A stretch of DNA of 26,389 bases from a virus. Made by a program: the position numbers and the translations under genes. The notes beneath the pieces are model-generated. The model saw only the letters and a list, made by a program, of their open reading frames with translations, did no database searches and was not told where the DNA came from. The stretch lies in IMG/VR virus record IMGVR_UViG_3300030450_000714, positions 1-26,389 of that record, one strand, 5' to 3'. Positions 19,087 through 26,369 of this stretch are shown here, in pieces (the first letter of the stretch is position 1; every line of letters begins with the position of its first letter).

Positions 19087-20949
19087 ATGGCTACAACTCA
19101 AAACGTATATACTGGAGACAATACCGCCGTTGACTTTGGTTTCACATTTCCATATTTAAAAGAATCTGACATTAAGGTAAGCCTTGATGGTACAGATCAG
19201 ACAATTACAACTCATTATACTTTACATAATGCAACGACAATAAGATTTGGTACTGCTCCTGCTACAGGAAAGATAGTTAGAGTCTATAGGGATACTGCTA
19301 GTGATAGCTTATCTTCAACTTTCTATCCAGGCTCAGCTATTAGGTCTAATGATCTTAATGATAACTATACTCAGAACTTGTATGTAACACAAGAAGGGGA
19401 GTATGATACAGCTTCTGCTCAGGATTATTCTAAACGATTTATTATCGATGGTGATGGATCTGATACTACTGGAACAGAAGAGCACCCAGTTATAGCTAAT
19501 AGACCTGCTAAACCACAGGGTGTACCTTATGCTATTACAACAGCTGGTAACGCAGTTACAACAGCTAACACTGCATCTACAAATGCGTCAAACGCTGTAA
19601 CTACCGCTAACGCAGCTAATACAACTGCGGCGACAGCTAATGCTACAGCTGGTACAGCGAACACAAACTCGACTAATGCTGTTAATACAGCAAACAGTGC
19701 AGTAACTACAGCTAATAGCGCTGTTAGTACAGCCAATGGTGCGGTTAGTACAGCTAATGCCGCTGATGCTATTGCTGATTCAGCAAAGCTAGCGACTGAT
19801 AGATTGGTTGCGATAACTACTGATGGAGGTTCTACATGGACTCAAACAGGTAATAATACAAATGCATCGACTGATCCTAAGGGTGTTGGTTATGCTATTA
19901 CTACATCAGAATCCGCTGTAACCACTTCTAATAGTGCAGTAAGTACTGCAAACAGTGCAGTTAGTACAGCTAATGGAGCAGTTACAACAGCGAATACAGC
20001 AAATACTACAGCTGGTAATGCGGTGACAACTGCAAATAGTGCAGTGACTACAGCGAATACAGCAAATACTACATCTGCTAGTGCTGTGACGACTGCGAAT
20101 AATGCTGTAACTACTGCTAACGCTGCAAGCGCTGCTGTTGCTGCAGCTGTGACATACACACAGAAAGCTAATGAAGCTGCTTTACAAGGCTTTGCTCCAG
20201 GTGAAGATGCAACTGATAATTTAGGTTATTATGAAGTAACTGATTCAACTAATTTAATTAATGAAGGTTGGGTCCATAGTGGTGTACATTATAAAACACA
20301 AAACATTCCAGCTACTTTTGAAGGGGCTCCCGGTCTTACGGTAAGATTAGAATTTAATTTTAACTCTGCCTCAGGTGCAGATGCTTCTAATCAGAAGACG
20401 TTCACTTATATGAGTTATTTTGCAAATGATCCTGAAGATAGGTACCTACCTAATACAAGAGTTCATTTAGCTGGAACACCAACGACAGGCAATATAAATT
20501 ATTTTACTGTTAAAGTAGCTACGAAAAATGCATTCCATCGTTATAATGGAACCGGATCATCTAATGGATATATACTTAATGGTGAGCAAGCTCCGTTTTT
20601 AGAGTTTACTCCAGGTATGACTTATAGATTTGATCAAGCTGATTCATCTAATGCAAATCATACTTTGAAGTTTTATGAAGAAGCAGATAAAACTACATTG
20701 TACTCAACTGGTGTAACATTAAATGGTACCCCTGGTTCAGCGGGTGCTTATACAGAAATAGTTACAACAGATACATTACCTACAGTTTTACATTATATGT
20801 GTGCTGAGCAGGCTCATGAAGGTAATGGAATACAAACTAACACTGCTTTTGATAGAACTGCGTTGCCAGTTATTGATGGTGGGGATTTCACCCTAACCGC
20901 AAGTTCAGCAACAGTCTCAACTATTTATGACGGAGGAGCGTTTACTTAA
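19087..20949 (+). CDS. Tail fibre protein with T7 gp17-type N-terminus, heptad stalk and cupredoxin-like tip
   Basis: A 620-aa fibre. Residues 1-130 match the T7 gp17 attachment domain (YTGDNTAVDFGFTFPYLKES, SDSLSSTFYPGSAIRSNDLN). Residues about 150-355 form a stalk of seven-residue repeats of the AVTTANS type. The stalk is interrupted once near residues 230-265 by a Gly/Trp-containing spacer (TTDGGSTWTQTGNN). Two ~121-aa stalk modules begin with related strings, PQGVPYAITT and PKGVGYAITT. Residues about 468-585 form a beta domain with NGTPGSAGAYTEI and YMCAEQAH. His525, Cys572 and His577 are placed like type-1 copper ligands of cupredoxins. The trimeric fibre would attach to the gp11/gp12 ring by its N-terminus. 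Confidence 0.88.
   Translation: MATTQNVYTGDNTAVDFGFTFPYLKESDIKVSLDGTDQTITTHYTLHNATTIRFGTAPATGKIVRVYRDTASDSLSSTFYPGSAIRSNDLNDNYTQNLYVTQEGEYDTASAQDYSKRFIIDGDGSDTTGTEEHPVIANRPAKPQGVPYAITTAGNAVTTANTASTNASNAVTTANAANTTAATANATAGTANTNSTNAVNTANSAVTTANSAVSTANGAVSTANAADAIADSAKLATDRLVAITTDGGSTWTQTGNNTNASTDPKGVGYAITTSESAVTTSNSAVSTANSAVSTANGAVTTANTANTTAGNAVTTANSAVTTANTANTTSASAVTTANNAVTTANAASAAVAAAVTYTQKANEAALQGFAPGEDATDNLGYYEVTDSTNLINEGWVHSGVHYKTQNIPATFEGAPGLTVRLEFNFNSASGADASNQKTFTYMSYFANDPEDRYLPNTRVHLAGTPTTGNINYFTVKVATKNAFHRYNGTGSSNGYILNGEQAPFLEFTPGMTYRFDQADSSNANHTLKFYEEADKTTLYSTGVTLNGTPGSAGAYTEIVTTDTLPTVLHYMCAEQAHEGNGIQTNTAFDRTALPVIDGGDFTLTASSATVSTIYDGGAFT
19546..20148 (+). repeat. 21-base heptad repeats coding the fibre stalk
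   Basis: Two blocks (about 19546-19760 and 19905-20148) repeat a 21-base unit coding A-V-T/S-T-A-N-S/T. Examples are the repeated GCAGTTAGTACAGCTAAT-like units. The two blocks belong to a larger duplication of about 363 bases, beginning at about 19519 and about 19882. The repeat gives an alanine-rich coiled-coil stalk and a natural site for unit gain or loss by slippage. Confidence 0.85.
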
Positions 20950-21597
20950 ATGGGTGTACCAAGTCCTAGAACCCCGGTCCGCGTAGCTCGGGGAACTTAT
21001 TCAGTATTGAATACAAATAAAGCTGCACTTGAAGAAGGTGAAGTTTGCTATGCAACAGATGAGAATTCTTTATATGTTAAAGAAGGTAATGATTTAATAG
21101 CACAACAAAGTGCTACAGGTGGTACATTCACTGGTACACATACTTACGATTCAAGTGGTAATGTAGTTATCAATGGATCCTTAGATTATAATGGAGCTGG
21201 TAATGCTACCTTTACTAACGTAGCAGTAGAAAGTGATCTTTGGTGTACTAATAATAGTGGTATTGCGCTTTATGAAACTAGTGGTAATGGTAGTAATAAA
21301 ATTACCATTAAATCACCAGCAGCAGTTACAGCTGATGTAACACTTACGTTACCAGATGGCGATGGTGCGACAGATGAGTTCTTACAGACAAATGGTTCAG
21401 GTGTGTTATCCTGGGGTACCTCTTCATCTGGTGCAACAGGTGGTGGTACTGACGCTATCTTTGTAGAGAACTCTCAAACAATTACAACTAACTATTCAAT
21501 AACAACTAATAAAAACGCCCACTCGGTTGGGCCTCTTTCAATTAACAACAATATCGTTGTTACAATTCCCGCAAACTCAACCTGGTTGGTATCTTAA
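20950..21597 (+). CDS. Fibre-like / adsorption protein, 215 aa
   Basis: A 215-aa protein starting directly after the fibre stop (TAAATG). The N-terminus PRTPVRVARGTYSVLNT and EGEVCYATDENSLYVKEG is a recurrent phage-fibre head motif. It is followed by Gly/Thr/Ser-rich beta strands (NVVINGSLDYNGAGNATF, ADVTLTLPDGDG). The C-terminus has KNAHSVGPLSINNNIVVTIP and ends STWLVS, a common trimeric-fibre tip arrangement ('NA.S.GP..I...V.V.IP.GSTW'). It probably forms part of the distal tail fibre or a separate short fibre. Which host molecule it binds cannot be read from sequence. Confidence 0.78.
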   Translation: MGVPSPRTPVRVARGTYSVLNTNKAALEEGEVCYATDENSLYVKEGNDLIAQQSATGGTFTGTHTYDSSGNVVINGSLDYNGAGNATFTNVAVESDLWCTNNSGIALYETSGNGSNKITIKSPAAVTADVTLTLPDGDGATDEFLQTNGSGVLSWGTSSSGATGGGTDAIFVENSQTITTNYSITTNKNAHSVGPLSINNNIVVTIPANSTWLVS

Positions 21598-21599
21598 TT

Positions 21600-22451
21600 A
21601 TGGCATACGGAAAAATTAAAGCAGACACTCTTGTATATGACAACAGTGGATCTGATGTAGAATTAGCGCTAAGTGACGTAGCTCCTAAAGCTTCGCCTAC
21701 TTTTACTGGAACAGTTAATGCAGCTGCATTGACACTAAGTGGAGATTTAACAGTGAATGGTACAACCACCACTGTGAATTCTACTACACTGAGTGTAGAT
21801 GATAAAAACATTGAACTTGGCTCTGTTGCAAGTCCATCAGATAGCACCGCCGATGGAGGGGGTGTAACCCTTAAAGGCGCTTCAGACAAAACAATCCTAT
21901 GGACAAACTCAACTGATTCTTGGGACTTTAACCAGCACGTTAATGCTGCTACAGGTCAAGAATATAAGATTAATAATGTATCAGTACTAAGTGCAACAAC
22001 ACTTGGATCTTCTGTTGTAGGTAGTTCACTAACTTCAGTAGGTACACTAGCAGGTCTTGACCTTGCTGGTCTTCTAACTGAGCATGTAACAGTTACTGCA
22101 GGTAAACTAAGTGCTACACCTAACCTAGACCTTGCTAATGGCAACGTCTTCCTATTTACAACTCAAGAAACTACAACTGCAACACCTAACCTTCGTTATG
22201 ATGGTTCGACAACGTTGAACAGTAAGATGGCTGTAGGTGATGTTGTTACAGTAGTACTTATTACAACTGCAGCAGCAGGTGGTTTCTGTGCTCAACTGAC
22301 AATTGATGGTGTAGCTGTAACAGAGAACTGGGTTGGAGGTTCCGCACCTTCTGACGGTGGTTCTTCAGGTGTAGATATTCACTCTTATACCATTATCAAA
22401 ACAGCTTCTGCAACATGGACTGTTATTGGTAATCAATCAAAAACTAGCTAA
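21600..22451 (+). CDS. Fibre-like / adsorption protein, 283 aa
   Basis: A 283-aa beta-rich protein. The N-terminus MAYGKIKADTLVYDNSGSDV is a widespread marine-phage fibre head. The middle has triple-beta-helix-like Thr/Ser/Val repeats (FTGTVNAAALTLSGDLTVNG, TVNSTTLSVDDKNIELGS, ADGGGVTLKG). That last string is typical of fibre segments that precede a C-terminal binding domain. Residues about 180-283 form a separate Gly/Thr-rich tip (VVTVVLITTAAAGGF, DIHSYTIIKTASATWTVIGN). It follows its neighbour by 2 bases with no clear Shine-Dalgarno. A virion adsorption role is inferred from family resemblance and position. Confidence 0.8.
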   Translation: MAYGKIKADTLVYDNSGSDVELALSDVAPKASPTFTGTVNAAALTLSGDLTVNGTTTTVNSTTLSVDDKNIELGSVASPSDSTADGGGVTLKGASDKTILWTNSTDSWDFNQHVNAATGQEYKINNVSVLSATTLGSSVVGSSLTSVGTLAGLDLAGLLTEHVTVTAGKLSATPNLDLANGNVFLFTTQETTTATPNLRYDGSTTLNSKMAVGDVVTVVLITTAAAGGFCAQLTIDGVAVTENWVGGSAPSDGGSSGVDIHSYTIIKTASATWTVIGNQSKTS

Positions 22452-22456
22452 CTTTA

Positions 22457-23449
22457 ATGAATTATATTAAAATGGCGCCCTTATCGGGGCTAGCTGGTTA
22501 TGGTGGCGGAACCTCTGGTTTAACACTTGCTGGAGCGGCTGCACCAGATATTTGGTATGGAGATAGAGGTATCGCCAGTCACTCACATACAGGTTATGAA
22601 TATATAACCATTAGTAGTACTGGTAATAGTTCTTCTTTTGGTAGCCAAGTTGAAGCAACTGTTATGTCTGGTGGAATGGGTTCTACCTCTAGATGTATAT
22701 TTTTTGGTGGTTCTTATAACTACGATAACAGTACTGACGACATAGAGTATATAGACCCGACTACAACTGGTAATGGTACAAATTTCGGAGATTTATCAGA
22801 TGACAGAAAGACGATGTTTACAGGATCAGATGGCTCTAGGGGCATAGCTGCTGGAGGCAACTATGGTCAAGGGGATACACTAGTACAAACAATAGAATAT
22901 GTAACCATTGCCACAACTGGTAATGCTTCTAGCTTTGGGACTGGAGTCCAACCAGAATTGTGCATGCAAGGACAGGTCTCTAACGATACATACGCGTTAT
23001 TTGGAGGTGGTGGTAGCTACTCAGGACAAAGCTCATTTGGACAGACCGATGATGTTAGATATGTCACCATACAATCTCCCGGGAATCAGAGTTCCTCGAT
23101 CGGAAATCTCACTGAAGCAAGAAGACAAGGCGCCGCTTGCTGTAGCCCAACAAGAGGCGTTTGGTTTGGTGGGACAGGTGCTAATGCTATTCGAAAAAAT
23201 ATAATAGATTATAGAACTCTAGATAATAGTTCTGAAAACTGTACTGATTTTGGTGATGTCGATACGGCAGTAGGTACCCTCGCTGGAACGGCAAATGAAA
23301 CTAGAGGGGTTTTCCAAGGCGGATACACAGATAGTACGCAAAGTGCAATACGGTATATAACTATAGGCAGTCCGAGTAATAGCTCGACTTTTGGTGCTCT
23401 ATCAGGTAGTAGATATGGCGTAGCAGCAGCTAGTGGCGGTGCAGTATGA
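22457..23449 (+). CDS. Kelch-like beta-propeller adhesin with shared N-terminal anchor
   Basis: A 330-aa protein. Residues 6-28 (KMAPLSGLAGYGGGTSGLTL) are the anchor motif also found at the start of the proteins at 24315 and 25103. The rest is five full ~48-residue repeats, each of the form 'IxYxTIxSxGNxSxFG ... SRG(I/V)xxGG'. A sixth partial repeat closes the C-terminus (IRYITIGSPSNSSTFG). The missing outer strand of the sixth blade appears to be supplied by the N-terminal DIWYGDRGIASHSH. This suggests a six-bladed propeller closed by N- and C-terminal strands. Propellers in fibres bind surface glycans or proteins. Stop TGA overlaps a possible small ORF. Confidence 0.8.
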   Translation: MNYIKMAPLSGLAGYGGGTSGLTLAGAAAPDIWYGDRGIASHSHTGYEYITISSTGNSSSFGSQVEATVMSGGMGSTSRCIFFGGSYNYDNSTDDIEYIDPTTTGNGTNFGDLSDDRKTMFTGSDGSRGIAAGGNYGQGDTLVQTIEYVTIATTGNASSFGTGVQPELCMQGQVSNDTYALFGGGGSYSGQSSFGQTDDVRYVTIQSPGNQSSSIGNLTEARRQGAACCSPTRGVWFGGTGANAIRKNIIDYRTLDNSSENCTDFGDVDTAVGTLAGTANETRGVFQGGYTDSTQSAIRYITIGSPSNSSTFGALSGSRYGVAAASGGAV

Positions 23450-23502
23450 GCCTTATAGTAAGTAAGGTATATAAGAAAAAACAATTCACAAAATCCACCT
23501 AA
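23446..23502 (+). CDS. Possible 18-aa basic peptide
   Basis: ATG 23446 overlaps the propeller gene's stop (ATGA) and opens MSLIVSKVYKKKQFTKST, ending TAA 23500-23502, one base before the next ATG. The peptide is Lys-rich with a short hydrophobic start. Tight ATGA coupling favours translation, but no ribosome-binding site or homologue is known to me and the length is within chance. The alternative is a simple 55-base spacer. Confidence 0.25.
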   Translation: MSLIVSKVYKKKQFTKST

Positions 23503-23503
23503 T

Positions 23504-24301
23504 ATGAGTAACATCGAAAAACATGAATCAGCAGGATTCATTATACCAAGTAATATTGTCAACGAGGCAGCAGTACAAAAAGTACAGCAATACTTACCAG
23601 AGCTAGCTGAAAAGACAGCAGCTTTTGGTAGTAATAACAGCCAATCAACACTAGCACTAATGAGTCTGACTATGCTTAATGGTCATTCTCCTTATCGTAT
23701 GCTAAGGCAGATCTTGGCAGAAGCTGAGAGAAGAAAACTGGCTCTATCTGAAGCTCAAGTAAGCCATGCTAAAGCATTAAAGAGGTTAGACGATTTAAAA
23801 GATTCTGATGATCCAATTAAACAAGCAAGGTATAGACAAAGTTGTGTCAGCCTTGCTACTATGGAACAGAAGATTAATGGGTCTTTTGGAGATCTTGCTA
23901 CTTTAATTGAAGCTTATAATAATATTAAAGCTAAAAATGGTATAGAAGATTGGGATGAAGAGGCATTTGAAAAAGAAGAAAAGAAACACCATGTAAGACG
24001 TGCATTTGAATTAATGTATCGTAACTTACTTGATGGTGGAAGAATGTCTACTTCAACTATTGAGTACTGCCAACAGTTTGGTATACACCCTCAAATATGT
24101 ATGACTGAAACTTCTGGTTATGTTGCTTATTGTGCTAAAAGAATAGCAGATGGAGAGTTATTACACTCTAATGATTTAGAAGAATTCTTAGATGAGATGG
24201 GTGAAAAGTACTATAAGAATGCAGATAAAACTGCTGAAAGATTATTTGGTAAGGCTGATTTCACAGTAAGTGATTATATGTATAAAACTGTAACTAAATA
24301 A
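23504..24301 (+). CDS. Unrecognised 265-aa helical protein within the fibre cluster
   Basis: A 265-aa alpha-helical protein that interrupts the fibre genes. Residues 1-60 are mixed (GFIIPSNIVNEAAVQKVQQY). Residues about 70-150 form a Lys/Glu/Leu coiled region (MLRQILAEAERRKLALSEAQ). Residues about 165-215 (FELMYRNLLDGGRMSTSTIE, YCQQFGIHPQICMTETSGYV) are the most distinctive segment and contain four Cys overall. The acidic C-terminal helix is followed by a short tail. There is no membrane segment or signal peptide. Similar proteins lie in this part of some cyanophage genomes, to my recollection, but I do not know a function. A tail-fibre assembly or chaperone role is possible only by location. 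Confidence 0.75.
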   Translation: MSNIEKHESAGFIIPSNIVNEAAVQKVQQYLPELAEKTAAFGSNNSQSTLALMSLTMLNGHSPYRMLRQILAEAERRKLALSEAQVSHAKALKRLDDLKDSDDPIKQARYRQSCVSLATMEQKINGSFGDLATLIEAYNNIKAKNGIEDWDEEAFEKEEKKHHVRRAFELMYRNLLDGGRMSTSTIEYCQQFGIHPQICMTETSGYVAYCAKRIADGELLHSNDLEEFLDEMGEKYYKNADKTAERLFGKADFTVSDYMYKTVTK

Positions 24302-24376
24302 TGGAGAACATTGTATGTTAATTTATCCACAAATTAAAGAATCACCTATAGCAGGATTAAGCGGTATGGGAGGTGG
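24301..24376 (+). repeat. Direct repeat copy 1: ribosome-binding leader plus anchor codons
   Basis: Bases 24301-24349 match 25089-25137 at 48 of 49 positions, with looser similarity to about 24376. The repeat covers the leader ATGGAGAACATTGT with its GGAG (24303-24306), the start ATG 24315 and the anchor-motif codons of the LamG-like gene. The match extends upstream of the start codon into non-coding sequence, so it is DNA-level duplication and not only protein conservation. Confidence 0.9.
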
Positions 24377-25088
24377 TACTTCAGGATTGACTGTAGTAGG
24401 AGAAGCTACAGGTATAAAAAAACCTTTTGACTATGCATTTAATTTTGATGGTGGTGGTCTAGGTGAAGAGTCGAATGGAGCTGAGGTAGGTGAATATGAT
24501 GTAAAAGGCACACCTGTTTATGAGTCATCTGGTGGTTATGCCGGCGGTGGCGGTTACTTAGGACAAGCTGGAGGAAATATAGTAACAAATTATATTGAAT
24601 TAGAAGGTGAAGCTGCGTATTCTCTTAATAGTCATGACCAATACGCCGTTTCTGTTTGGTATAAAGGAACTCAAACCTCTACTAACGGCGGCGACTATAC
24701 AGTAGACATTCCTTTTTGTGGTGATACATCTGGTGACGTTCATGGTGCCTTTGGTTTAGAAGGAGGTAAATTAGCTTTGATGCATTCAGGTACTTTGATA
24801 GACAGTGGTCAGAACAGTGTTACTGATGGTAACTGGCATCACTGTGGTTTGATATGGGAAAATAATGGCTCCTCTGATACTGTTAAATTATTTGTAGATG
24901 GAGAGTTAGAAGTTAGTAACACCTTAAATACTAATAACTACATTCGACTTCACTGTATAGGAGGTAACTATGACTATGGCAACACCCGTCCTAATGCTTT
25001 AGATAATCTTGTTATATGGATAGATCGAGGCATAACTGCTAATGATATGAAAAACGCCTATGACGTAGGTGGTTTTAATGGACTTTAA
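24315..25088 (+). CDS. LamG / concanavalin A-like lectin adhesin with shared anchor
   Basis: A 257-aa protein. Residues 1-30 (PQIKESPIAGLSGMGGGTSG) form the anchor motif shared with two neighbours. From about residue 35 the chain has the LamG_3 / concanavalin A-like jelly-roll pattern: FDYAFNFDG, a long strand region, SLNSHDQYAVSVWYKGTQ, VTDGNWHHCGLIWENNG, VKLFVDGELEVSNTL, and a closing LDNLVIWIDRGITANDMKNA. That last string is the classic 'DNV.iW...LT..EI..LY' ending of the family. This fold usually binds carbohydrate, so a virion adhesin for host polysaccharide is likely. Start ATG 24315 has GGAG 8 bases upstream. A 6-codon frame from ATG 24301 overlaps the start. Confidence 0.82.
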   Translation: MLIYPQIKESPIAGLSGMGGGTSGLTVVGEATGIKKPFDYAFNFDGGGLGEESNGAEVGEYDVKGTPVYESSGGYAGGGGYLGQAGGNIVTNYIELEGEAAYSLNSHDQYAVSVWYKGTQTSTNGGDYTVDIPFCGDTSGDVHGAFGLEGGKLALMHSGTLIDSGQNSVTDGNWHHCGLIWENNGSSDTVKLFVDGELEVSNTLNTNNYIRLHCIGGNYDYGNTRPNALDNLVIWIDRGITANDMKNAYDVGGFNGL

Positions 25089-25164
25089 ATGGAGAACATT
25101 GTATGTTAATTTACCCACAAATTAAAGAATCACCTATCGCTGGTTTGAGCGGTATGGGAGGAGG
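25089..25164 (+). repeat. Direct repeat copy 2: ribosome-binding leader plus anchor codons
   Basis: Partner of the repeat at 24301, 788 bases downstream. It begins immediately after the LamG-like gene's TAA and includes ATGGAGAACATTGT, the start ATG 25103 and the anchor codons. The single mismatch in the first 49 bases is at 25113. Recombination between the copies would delete or swap the LamG-like gene cleanly. Confidence 0.9.
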
Positions 25165-25681
25165 AGCTCAAGGTCTAATAACTGTATCTGCTGGCGCTGC
25201 TCAATATGACCATGAGTTTACCTACAGCAGTGGCGGTAGCTGGTCAGGAACTACTACAGGTGATAATGCATCTTATCCTAAAGAGCGTGTATTTAATGGA
25301 GGAACTAACCAAAGTAGTTATCAAGATGCTGGTGGAAGCAGCAGAAGTGATTACTGGGTCAAATATACGTTTGATCCTATGATAGGATTTTCTAACCAAG
25401 TTAGAGTATACTTTGATGGTGATAATAGAAGCGGGACCCCTAAGGTAGAGGCTAAATTTGCAGATAATCCTTGGACTAGGACTACAACAGTAAATGTTCA
25501 ACAAACTGGTAGTGGTGGTTTAGGTGATGCTCAATGGTTGACTTTTAGTCATGTTGCCGGTGACGTTGGACTATGGTCAATAAGATATATTGGAAGTGAT
25601 AGCGACGGGTACTGGGGCATGCTATATGCAATAGAAGTTGACGGTGAACATTTAACAAGTACAGGTACTCACACATGGTAA
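25103..25681 (+). CDS. Jelly-roll-like adhesin with shared anchor
   Basis: A 192-aa protein. Its first ~25 residues (MLIYPQIKESPIAGLSGMGG) are nearly identical to the LamG-like neighbour, after which the sequences diverge completely. The remainder is beta-rich with many Trp and Tyr (YDHEFTYSSGGSWSG, DYWVKYTFDPMIGF, QVRVYFDGDN). It ends WGMLYAIEVDGEHL, a motif I associate with C-terminal domains of cyanophage fibres (pattern 'W..L.AIEVDG..L'). A discoidin- or jelly-roll-type binding domain is likely, though the exact fold cannot be fixed by eye. Start ATG 25103 has GGAG 8 bases upstream within the repeat. Confidence 0.72.
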   Translation: MLIYPQIKESPIAGLSGMGGGAQGLITVSAGAAQYDHEFTYSSGGSWSGTTTGDNASYPKERVFNGGTNQSSYQDAGGSSRSDYWVKYTFDPMIGFSNQVRVYFDGDNRSGTPKVEAKFADNPWTRTTTVNVQQTGSGGLGDAQWLTFSHVAGDVGLWSIRYIGSDSDGYWGMLYAIEVDGEHLTSTGTHTW

Positions 25682-25684
25682 TAT

Positions 25685-26101
25685 ATGGAATTTCCATCTA
25701 TAAACTTACCTCCACAAATACTACCACAAGCTCCACCTTTACCGCGTCCTAATCTGGATGCACCGGAGGCACTATTACCTACGTATAAACCTATGTTAGT
25801 ACCATCAGGTGCTTTACGAGGTCCAACTGGTAAGGAGGAGGAGGAAGAAGATAATGAACCAACAGCTGCTGAAGTACAAAGGGTTAATATCCCTTTTACT
25901 GATATAACAATACCTGTACCACAGGAAGAGATAATGGTTACTGCAGCTACTACAGCATTTATCTCTGTAGCTGCAACCTTAACTGCTACAAGTTTATTTA
26001 AACAATGTGTTAAGGTATTTAAACCAATTATAATGCAACTCGCTAAACGAATTCAAAAGAAACTGAATGGAAACCCCAAAGCCGAAGAACCTTCTGCATA
26101 A
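25685..26101 (+). CDS. Pro-rich single-span membrane protein
   Basis: A 138-aa protein. Residues 1-45 are Pro-rich (MEFPSINLPPQILPQAPPLP). A Glu run (KEEEEEDNE) lies near residues 49-57. A hydrophobic segment (VTAATTAFISVAATLTATSL) near residues 84-105 could span a membrane and is followed by a basic helix (KPIIMQLAKRIQKKLNG). This N-Pro / acid / hydrophobic / basic order recurs in a family of cyanophage virion-associated proteins, as I recall, but the role is unknown. It overlaps the next gene by 35 bases, linking it to the putative lysis unit. A minor virion or membrane-targeted lysis accessory is possible. Confidence 0.68.
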   Translation: MEFPSINLPPQILPQAPPLPRPNLDAPEALLPTYKPMLVPSGALRGPTGKEEEEEDNEPTAAEVQRVNIPFTDITIPVPQEEIMVTAATTAFISVAATLTATSLFKQCVKVFKPIIMQLAKRIQKKLNGNPKAEEPSA

Positions 26102-26369
26102 ACTAAAAGATGCAGCAGAAGATAATGAAGCTCAGATACAGATCCTAGGAACCTTTGTAAGGCTTGGAGTTGTGGTTTGGGCAGGATTTATCATAACCTT
26201 AAATTACGTGGAACTCCCGATGATTAAGAAGGGTTCTAGTGGCGATATCACGTTCGTTGCCAGCGTGTTTACTGGTGCATTAGCCACTTTTGGTTTGTCT
26301 ACCAGTAATTCTAAAGGTAAGAATAACACACCCGTAAATTGTCCTATGACTAAAAAGAAAGACGAATGA
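26067..26369 (+). CDS. Small membrane protein, holin candidate
   Basis: A 100-aa protein with two hydrophobic segments: about residues 27-49 (LGTFVRLGVVVWAGFIITLN) and 59-78 (DITFVASVFTGALATFGLST). An amphipathic N-terminal helix (NLLHKLKDAAEDNEAQIQ) and a basic tail ending MTKKKDE complete it. Size, the number of spans and the charged C-terminus fit phage holins, and similar proteins in marine phages are annotated as holin-like. Holins open the inner membrane to release endolysin. The gene overlaps the next start by 4 bases (ATGA), consistent with a lysis or late operon. The start could lie at a different in-frame codon; ATG 26067 overlaps the upstream gene. Confidence 0.6.
   Translation: METPKPKNLLHKLKDAAEDNEAQIQILGTFVRLGVVVWAGFIITLNYVELPMIKKGSSGDITFVASVFTGALATFGLSTSNSKGKNNTPVNCPMTKKKDE

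Follow-up and report, generated by a model that had tools for sequence, protein, structure and literature searches.

Gene content of the locus

IMG/VR virus record IMGVR_UViG_3300030450_000714 (positions 1 to 26,389; this whole stretch of 26.4 kb is called the window) was found to contain the T7-like gene order of portal, scaffold, capsid, tail proteins, internal virion protein and gp17-like fibre. The portal shared 73% identity with those of the Synechococcus phages S-CBP3 and S-SRP01, and the window is, as judged from its genes, a fragment of a T7-like cyanopodovirus-type phage. The gp17-like fibre gene was followed by two fibre-like genes (20950 and 21600) and then by three open reading frames (ORFs) at 22457-23449, 24315-25088 and 25103-25681. 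The proteins of these three ORFs, the putative adhesins studied here, shared a start of about 20 residues with the pattern K..P[LI].GL.G.GGG..GL (the anchor) and then diverged into different domains (the heads). The features of the region are given in Table 1.

Table 1. Positions of the tail-fibre and putative adhesin features in the window (nt, nucleotides; aa, amino acids; AF2, AlphaFold2; pLDDT, predicted local distance difference test score).
Feature	Position	Strand	Basis
T7 gp17-like tail fibre with alanine-rich shaft; putative tail attachment of the fibre system	19087..20949	+	PF03906 N-terminal tail-attachment domain, E 4e-18; tail-fibre PHROGs
Second fibre/connector protein; N-terminus weakly Mtd_N-like, C-terminus apparently fibre-type	20950..21597	+	Mtd_N E 0.005 (below cut-off); PHROG tail-fibre similarity at 58-214
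Fibre protein, its C-terminal domain the proposed dock	21600..22451	+	phrog_6002/phrog_5906; adjoins anchor genes
Fibre-tip domain, about 127 aa	22068..22448	+	Alignment A1; profile match stops 3 residues short of the stop codon
Anchor peptide 1, MNYIKMAPLSGLAGYGGGTSGL..., predicted disordered	22457..22546	+	Profile E 2e-12; AF2 pLDDT <50, residues 1-29
Head 1, six-bladed kelch-type beta-propeller (model)	22547..23449	+	AF2, Foldseek, VIA-align
Conserved 265-aa protein between the first and second adhesin, unrelated to both	23504..24301	+	
Leader (TAAATGGAGAACATTGT-type) and anchor peptide 2, MLIYPQIKESPIAGLSGMGGGTSGL	24298..24389	+	Profile E 4e-14; DNA comparison with copy 3
Head 2, LamG/concanavalin A-like	24390..25088	+	PF13385 (Laminin_G_3) E 4e-8, residues 92-235
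Leader and anchor peptide 3, MLIYPQIKESPIAGLSGMGGGAQGL	25086..25177	+	Profile E 8e-13; codons 1-21 compared with copy 2
Head 3, small domain	25178..25681	+	Weak similarity to the anchored LamG protein of locus L027

Shared anchor and different heads

The anchor motif was found exactly in all three proteins, with one copy per adhesin not more than 8 residues from the start and no further copy in a six-frame translation of the window. The original prediction, an earlier reading of this DNA, had described the same pattern at 22457, 24315 and 25103, and its coordinates and ORFs proved correct; it made no mention of the unrelated and well conserved gene 23504-24301, which separates the first two adhesins. 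All three proteins matched the anchor profile at the E values of Table 1, all three being in its training set.

The copies at 24315 and 25103 were found to contain the same 17-nt leader TAAATGGAGAACATTGT, except at the junction, followed by 21 codons with seven differences, all of them synonymous. The likeness stopped at about codon 25. Since leader and anchor were alike, with synonymous differences only, and the likeness was lost so soon afterwards, copies 2 and 3 are read from their sequence as an anchor that was duplicated and kept under constraint at the protein level, the head behind it having been replaced by a different one. The near identity of the leader and anchor DNA in these two copies would also fit a recombination or expression element whose protein sequence has no docking role, but synonymous differences and an amino-acid motif kept across many contigs speak against such an element, and this explanation is considered highly improbable. 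A secretion signal or lipoprotein role for the anchor was dropped, as its glycine-rich sequence and its position behind a fibre gene made a virion role simpler (judged by eye).

The AF2 model of the head 1 protein (17 sequences) contained disordered residues 1-29 followed by a confident beta-propeller with pLDDT of 74-94 in blocks. The model was matched by Foldseek with E values to 1e-17 and by VIA-align with Z 36 to SAKe6 (274 residues) and Z 35 to Keap1, and no Pfam kelch model was matched by sequence. The six-bladed kelch propeller fold of head 1 was thus confirmed at the level of the model. Head 2 scored 33.9 bits against PF13385, above the curated cut-off of 27.6. A beta-propeller and a LamG-like domain had been proposed for these two proteins, and both assignments held. 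The jelly-roll-like domain proposed for the 25103 protein was not confirmed, as head 3 had no Pfam, PHROG, named-phage or credible PDB match by sequence; it showed a weak phmmer similarity (E 0.06) to the central part of L027:2970-4166, a LamG protein with an anchor.

Anchor in other marine viruses

A degenerate DNA pattern of the anchor was searched over 2.9 million viral contigs and found in 38 stretches. The N-terminal anchors of real ORFs accounted for 21 of these, in which the motif was nearly always preceded by lysine, and the other 17 were scattered chance matches in unrelated frames or proteins. About 20 other marine viral contigs also had the anchor at a protein N-terminus, where it was followed by kelch, LamG, glycine-rich, RCC1, other propeller or DUF7483 heads. 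The motif was thus present outside this locus and linked to varied domains, with at least six unrelated head types behind it, and this comparative genomics supports well the proposal, made in the original prediction, of one docking peptide with exchangeable heads. Short anchor peptides gave no match in tblastn, as expected for a short glycine-rich query. Bacterial genomes scanned with a stricter pattern also gave no match, so that no host link was obtained. No paper on this anchor was found in the open-access literature searched, though one may still exist.

Fibre-tip domain upstream of the anchor

The gene directly 5′ of the anchor was found to contain the same C-terminal domain of about 125 residues as protein 21600-22451 (the tip domain) in 19 of 19 testable pattern loci and at none of the 17 chance-match loci. 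The 19 contigs leave out L030 and L048, which end too early, and include the near-identical pairs L055/L063, L049/L065 and L059/L067. From the end of the tip domain to the anchor match in the first anchor gene the distance was 21-62 nt, and the domain itself stopped 3-5 residues before the stop codon. At locus L037, which has two anchor genes, a separate tip-domain fibre preceded each of them.

The collection was also scanned for the tip domain with a closer subset of alignment A1, the full alignment being too divergent, and the earlier loci were added. All 85 distinct copies of the tip domain were followed by an ORF at -1 to +44 nt, which was adhesin-like in 83 cases. The anchor profile matched 51 of the 85 next ORFs at a permissive E <0.5. 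Most of the others contained a visibly related short N-terminus (e.g. MKQDYWTYNKPLSMTGLGGGATSL), and a minority (cyanomyoviruses, MTPPLTM.GMSGPVS types) another short peptide. The scanned proteins behind the tip domain contained Gly_rich_2, LamG, DUF7483, RCC1, SBBP or SGL-type propeller, kelch or no known domain, and the SGL-type propeller protein of L162 began with a different N-terminal peptide. Twice, in cyanomyoviruses, the tip-domain gene was followed by another fibre gene carrying this tip domain, with a glycine-rich protein behind it. In MW202481 the gene after the tip-domain gene was annotated as 'phage tail fiber adhesin gp38'.

Six contigs (L037, L124, L160, L163, L165 and L177) contained two to three fibre-adhesin pairs, each adhesin behind its own tip-domain fibre, an arrangement which suggests several separate fibre systems per phage. 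In L077 (1356-3207), ORFs resembling sugar or nucleotide-sugar metabolism genes by eye were found between a homologue of the conserved 23504 protein and the fibre-adhesin pair.

Linkage and co-variation of anchor and fibre

Among 82 fibre-adhesin pairs, similarity of the fibre's tip domain was correlated with anchor similarity (Spearman rho 0.32, Mantel P 0.002) and not with head similarity (rho -0.004, P 0.54); among pairs with unrelated heads only, the fibre-anchor value was rho 0.31. Of the 27 kelch loci left after deduplication, 5 had the anchor together with the tip domain and 22 had neither; no locus had one without the other (Fisher P 1e-5). Both the co-variation and the kelch contrast are uncorrected for phylogeny, and about 9 of the 22 anchor-less kelch loci begin near the edge of the available sequence, so that a fibre could lie outside. 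Loci L018-L020 shared the same phage backbone and contained neither anchor nor tip domain. The genetic linkage of anchor and tip domain was strict, and it was the anchor, not the head, that co-varied with the fibre.

The original prediction had suggested gp11, gp12 or gp17 as the dock, from which the likely dock differs. On a broader form of that idea, the anchor docks elsewhere on the tail (the gp17-like fibre, the nozzle or the 20950 protein) and the upstream fibre is a mere operon neighbour, as neighbours in tail-operon cassettes often travel together. However, the anchor genes were tied to the tip domain even where no other tail gene of the window was detected (e.g. L037, L042, L068), and the anchor sequence tracked the tip domain. 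Moreover, a clean contrast was given by two cyanopodovirus loci (L020 and L076), which kept the gp17-like fibre, had a kelch protein of different N-terminus immediately behind it, and lacked both tip domain and anchor. Docking on another tail part is thus regarded as unlikely, and the evidence favours the C-terminal domain of the fibre 21600-22451 directly upstream.

Another explanation is that the downstream proteins are not adhesins and instead act as dedicated folding chaperones of the fibre or as transient caps released after assembly, of the T4 gp38, V22/A5 and Pam3 gp25 type. This gene order is also that of fibre-chaperone pairs, which marine phages and cyanophages use (PMC10579305, PMC9608196). 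A chaperone should, however, vary with its fibre, which the heads did not. Kelch, RCC1, LamG and glycine-rich domains are typical binding folds, several different ones were found behind one fibre, and a chaperone role would better suit the 23504 protein, which is separate and conserved. The chaperone or cap role is accordingly given little credence.

The three window proteins are therefore probably alternative tip adhesins of one tail fibre, whose anchor would dock on the C-terminal tip domain of the 21600-22451 protein.

Weighing of the docking proposal

The tip domain of the L014 homologue was predicted by AF2 as a beta fold with pLDDT of about 90. Its first Foldseek match was T4 gp10 (E 0.28). 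VIA-align gave scores of Z 5.0-6.8, among them Z 5.2-5.8 for T4 gp9 and TSP4 (Z 5.8 for TSP4 78-179, the XD1 region of CBA120 TSP4, and Z 5.3 for gp9), as well as Z 4.2 for CpaA (6o38) and Z 3.8 for StcE (4dny), and a weak likeness to a phage capsid spike was also found. The joint appearance of gp9, gp10, CpaA and StcE repeats the published list of XD1 neighbours (PMC8825819), yet the scores are too low, and an XD1 fold is not claimed. Further differences from T4 gp9/gp10 and the TSP4 XD1 connectors are that no sequence match was found and that the tip domain lies at a fibre tip, while XD1 lies in the baseplate anchor.

Several points weigh against docking of the anchor on the tip domain. All fold matches of the tip domain remained under Z 8, the level separating real relatives from common arrangements. 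The co-variation of anchor and fibre was modest and carries the phylogenetic limit given above, and operon order alone could yield linkage without contact. The cyanomyoviruses S-CAM22 and P-SSM7 contained the tip domain followed by glycine-rich proteins with a different N-terminus, so that the anchor is not universal. When tip domain and anchor of L014 were modelled by AF2 as the natural in-frame read-through (TAA read as G), the anchor was unstructured; docking on a trimer is beyond what a monomer can reveal, so that this fused-chain result is uninformative rather than negative.

Conserved protein 23504-24301 and other gene arrangements

Homologues of the 23504 protein shared 56-88% identity with the window protein across very different phages (alignment). 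It matched no named phage and no known family, and its best PDB match (E 0.02, 37 residues of a kinase) was not credible. In 36 of 40 loci a kelch gene ended at most 300 nt upstream of the homologue, and in the other 4 about 360 nt upstream, with the homologue standing behind kelch genes with or without the anchor. The family (L072-L107) contained many invariant residues and, in many marine phages of varied genome size, stood behind kelch adhesin genes. By its sequence context the protein may be a propeller assembly factor that tracks the propeller head; as L077, L079 and L080 contained a homologue and no kelch gene in the available sequence, this role is only a suggestion.

Tandem arrays of up to 4-5 kelch-propeller ORFs with another N-terminal module (MSTLKVNTI... 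/ MSEFTTRKITDRAGTG...) were found in L084, L088, L089 and L092 and are a second multi-adhesin arrangement. In the related cyanopodoviruses L010, L011, L026 and L028, one giant protein of 1000-1600 aa filled the whole adhesin slot from the fibre to the homologue of 25685; at three of these loci a small 'MGYKLNG...NWLR' protein came next. The giant-protein module and the anchored-adhesin module were never seen together. The window also contained a DUF6450 protein (26067-26369) at the T7 gp18-like position, conserved in the relatives fetched with bait 25685.

Comparison with known receptor-binding systems

In the T2-type gp37/gp38 systems (S16, PP01, T2) the adhesin gene also lies directly behind the distal fibre gene, as does the first anchor gene here, with copies 2 and 3 further down. 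In a T2/PP01 chimera the gp38 N-terminus had to fit its own fibre, and 113 N-terminal residues were swapped (PMC12892980). Many members of the anchor family elsewhere also contained glycine-rich heads (Gly_rich_2). In contrast, the window has kelch, LamG and third-domain heads in place of a glycine-rich (polyglycine II) head with hypervariable loops, the conserved anchor is only about 20 residues long as against the 113 swapped, and the window contains several adhesins per fibre on a T7-like podovirus tail. Pfam GP38 gave no match in the three window proteins or in any relative scanned.

In the KP32-type branched receptor-binding proteins (RBPs), RBP2 attaches to RBP1 through a conserved N-terminal peptide (PMC13082707). 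The T7-like virion, the short conserved N-terminal peptide and the upstream fibre gene as partner are shared with the window. The dock of KP32 is a gp10-like branching domain inside RBP1 and its heads are depolymerases, whereas the dock proposed here lies at the very C-terminal end of a separate fibre protein, and the heads differ (kelch, LamG and a third domain). The N-terminus of KP32 gp38 did not match the anchor profile (E 2, negative score). By analogy, the anchor system functionally resembles gp37/gp38 and the RBP2 peptide of KP32, with unrelated sequences and more varied heads. As the sequence tests for gp38 and KP32 failed, it is filed as a variant of modular receptor-binding systems and as a member of neither.

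Proposed mechanism and significance

In the proposed mechanism, the 21600-22451 fibre, presumably a trimer, would be joined to the tail through the gp17-like protein and probably also the 20950 protein. The short flexible N-terminal anchor would dock and fold on its C-terminal tip domain, so that the kelch propeller, LamG and third-domain heads point outward and may contact the host surface as receptor-binding parts. As only the anchor must fit the fibre, the heads would be exchangeable, either by recombination just behind the anchor or by addition of a head through duplication of leader and anchor, as the 24315 and 25103 copies illustrate. As three anchored adhesins would share a single fibre species, the fibre tips of a virion would probably bear mixtures of them.

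It is possible, if somewhat doubtful, that this undescribed pair of anchor and tip domain is widespread and serves ocean phages with several types of genome as a 'universal socket' for swapping heads of unrelated folds, and that a phage with more than one anchored adhesin makes mixed-tip virions. For uncultured marine phages, sequence mostly does not reveal how hosts are recognised, because their receptor-binding proteins have little sequence in common. The anchor profile and its fibre-tip partner offer a handle for finding adhesins by position, cataloguing their heads and testing links between head and host. Mixed-tip virions, if true, would be a built-in heterogeneity of host range and would allow a direct test of how phages hedge their host range.

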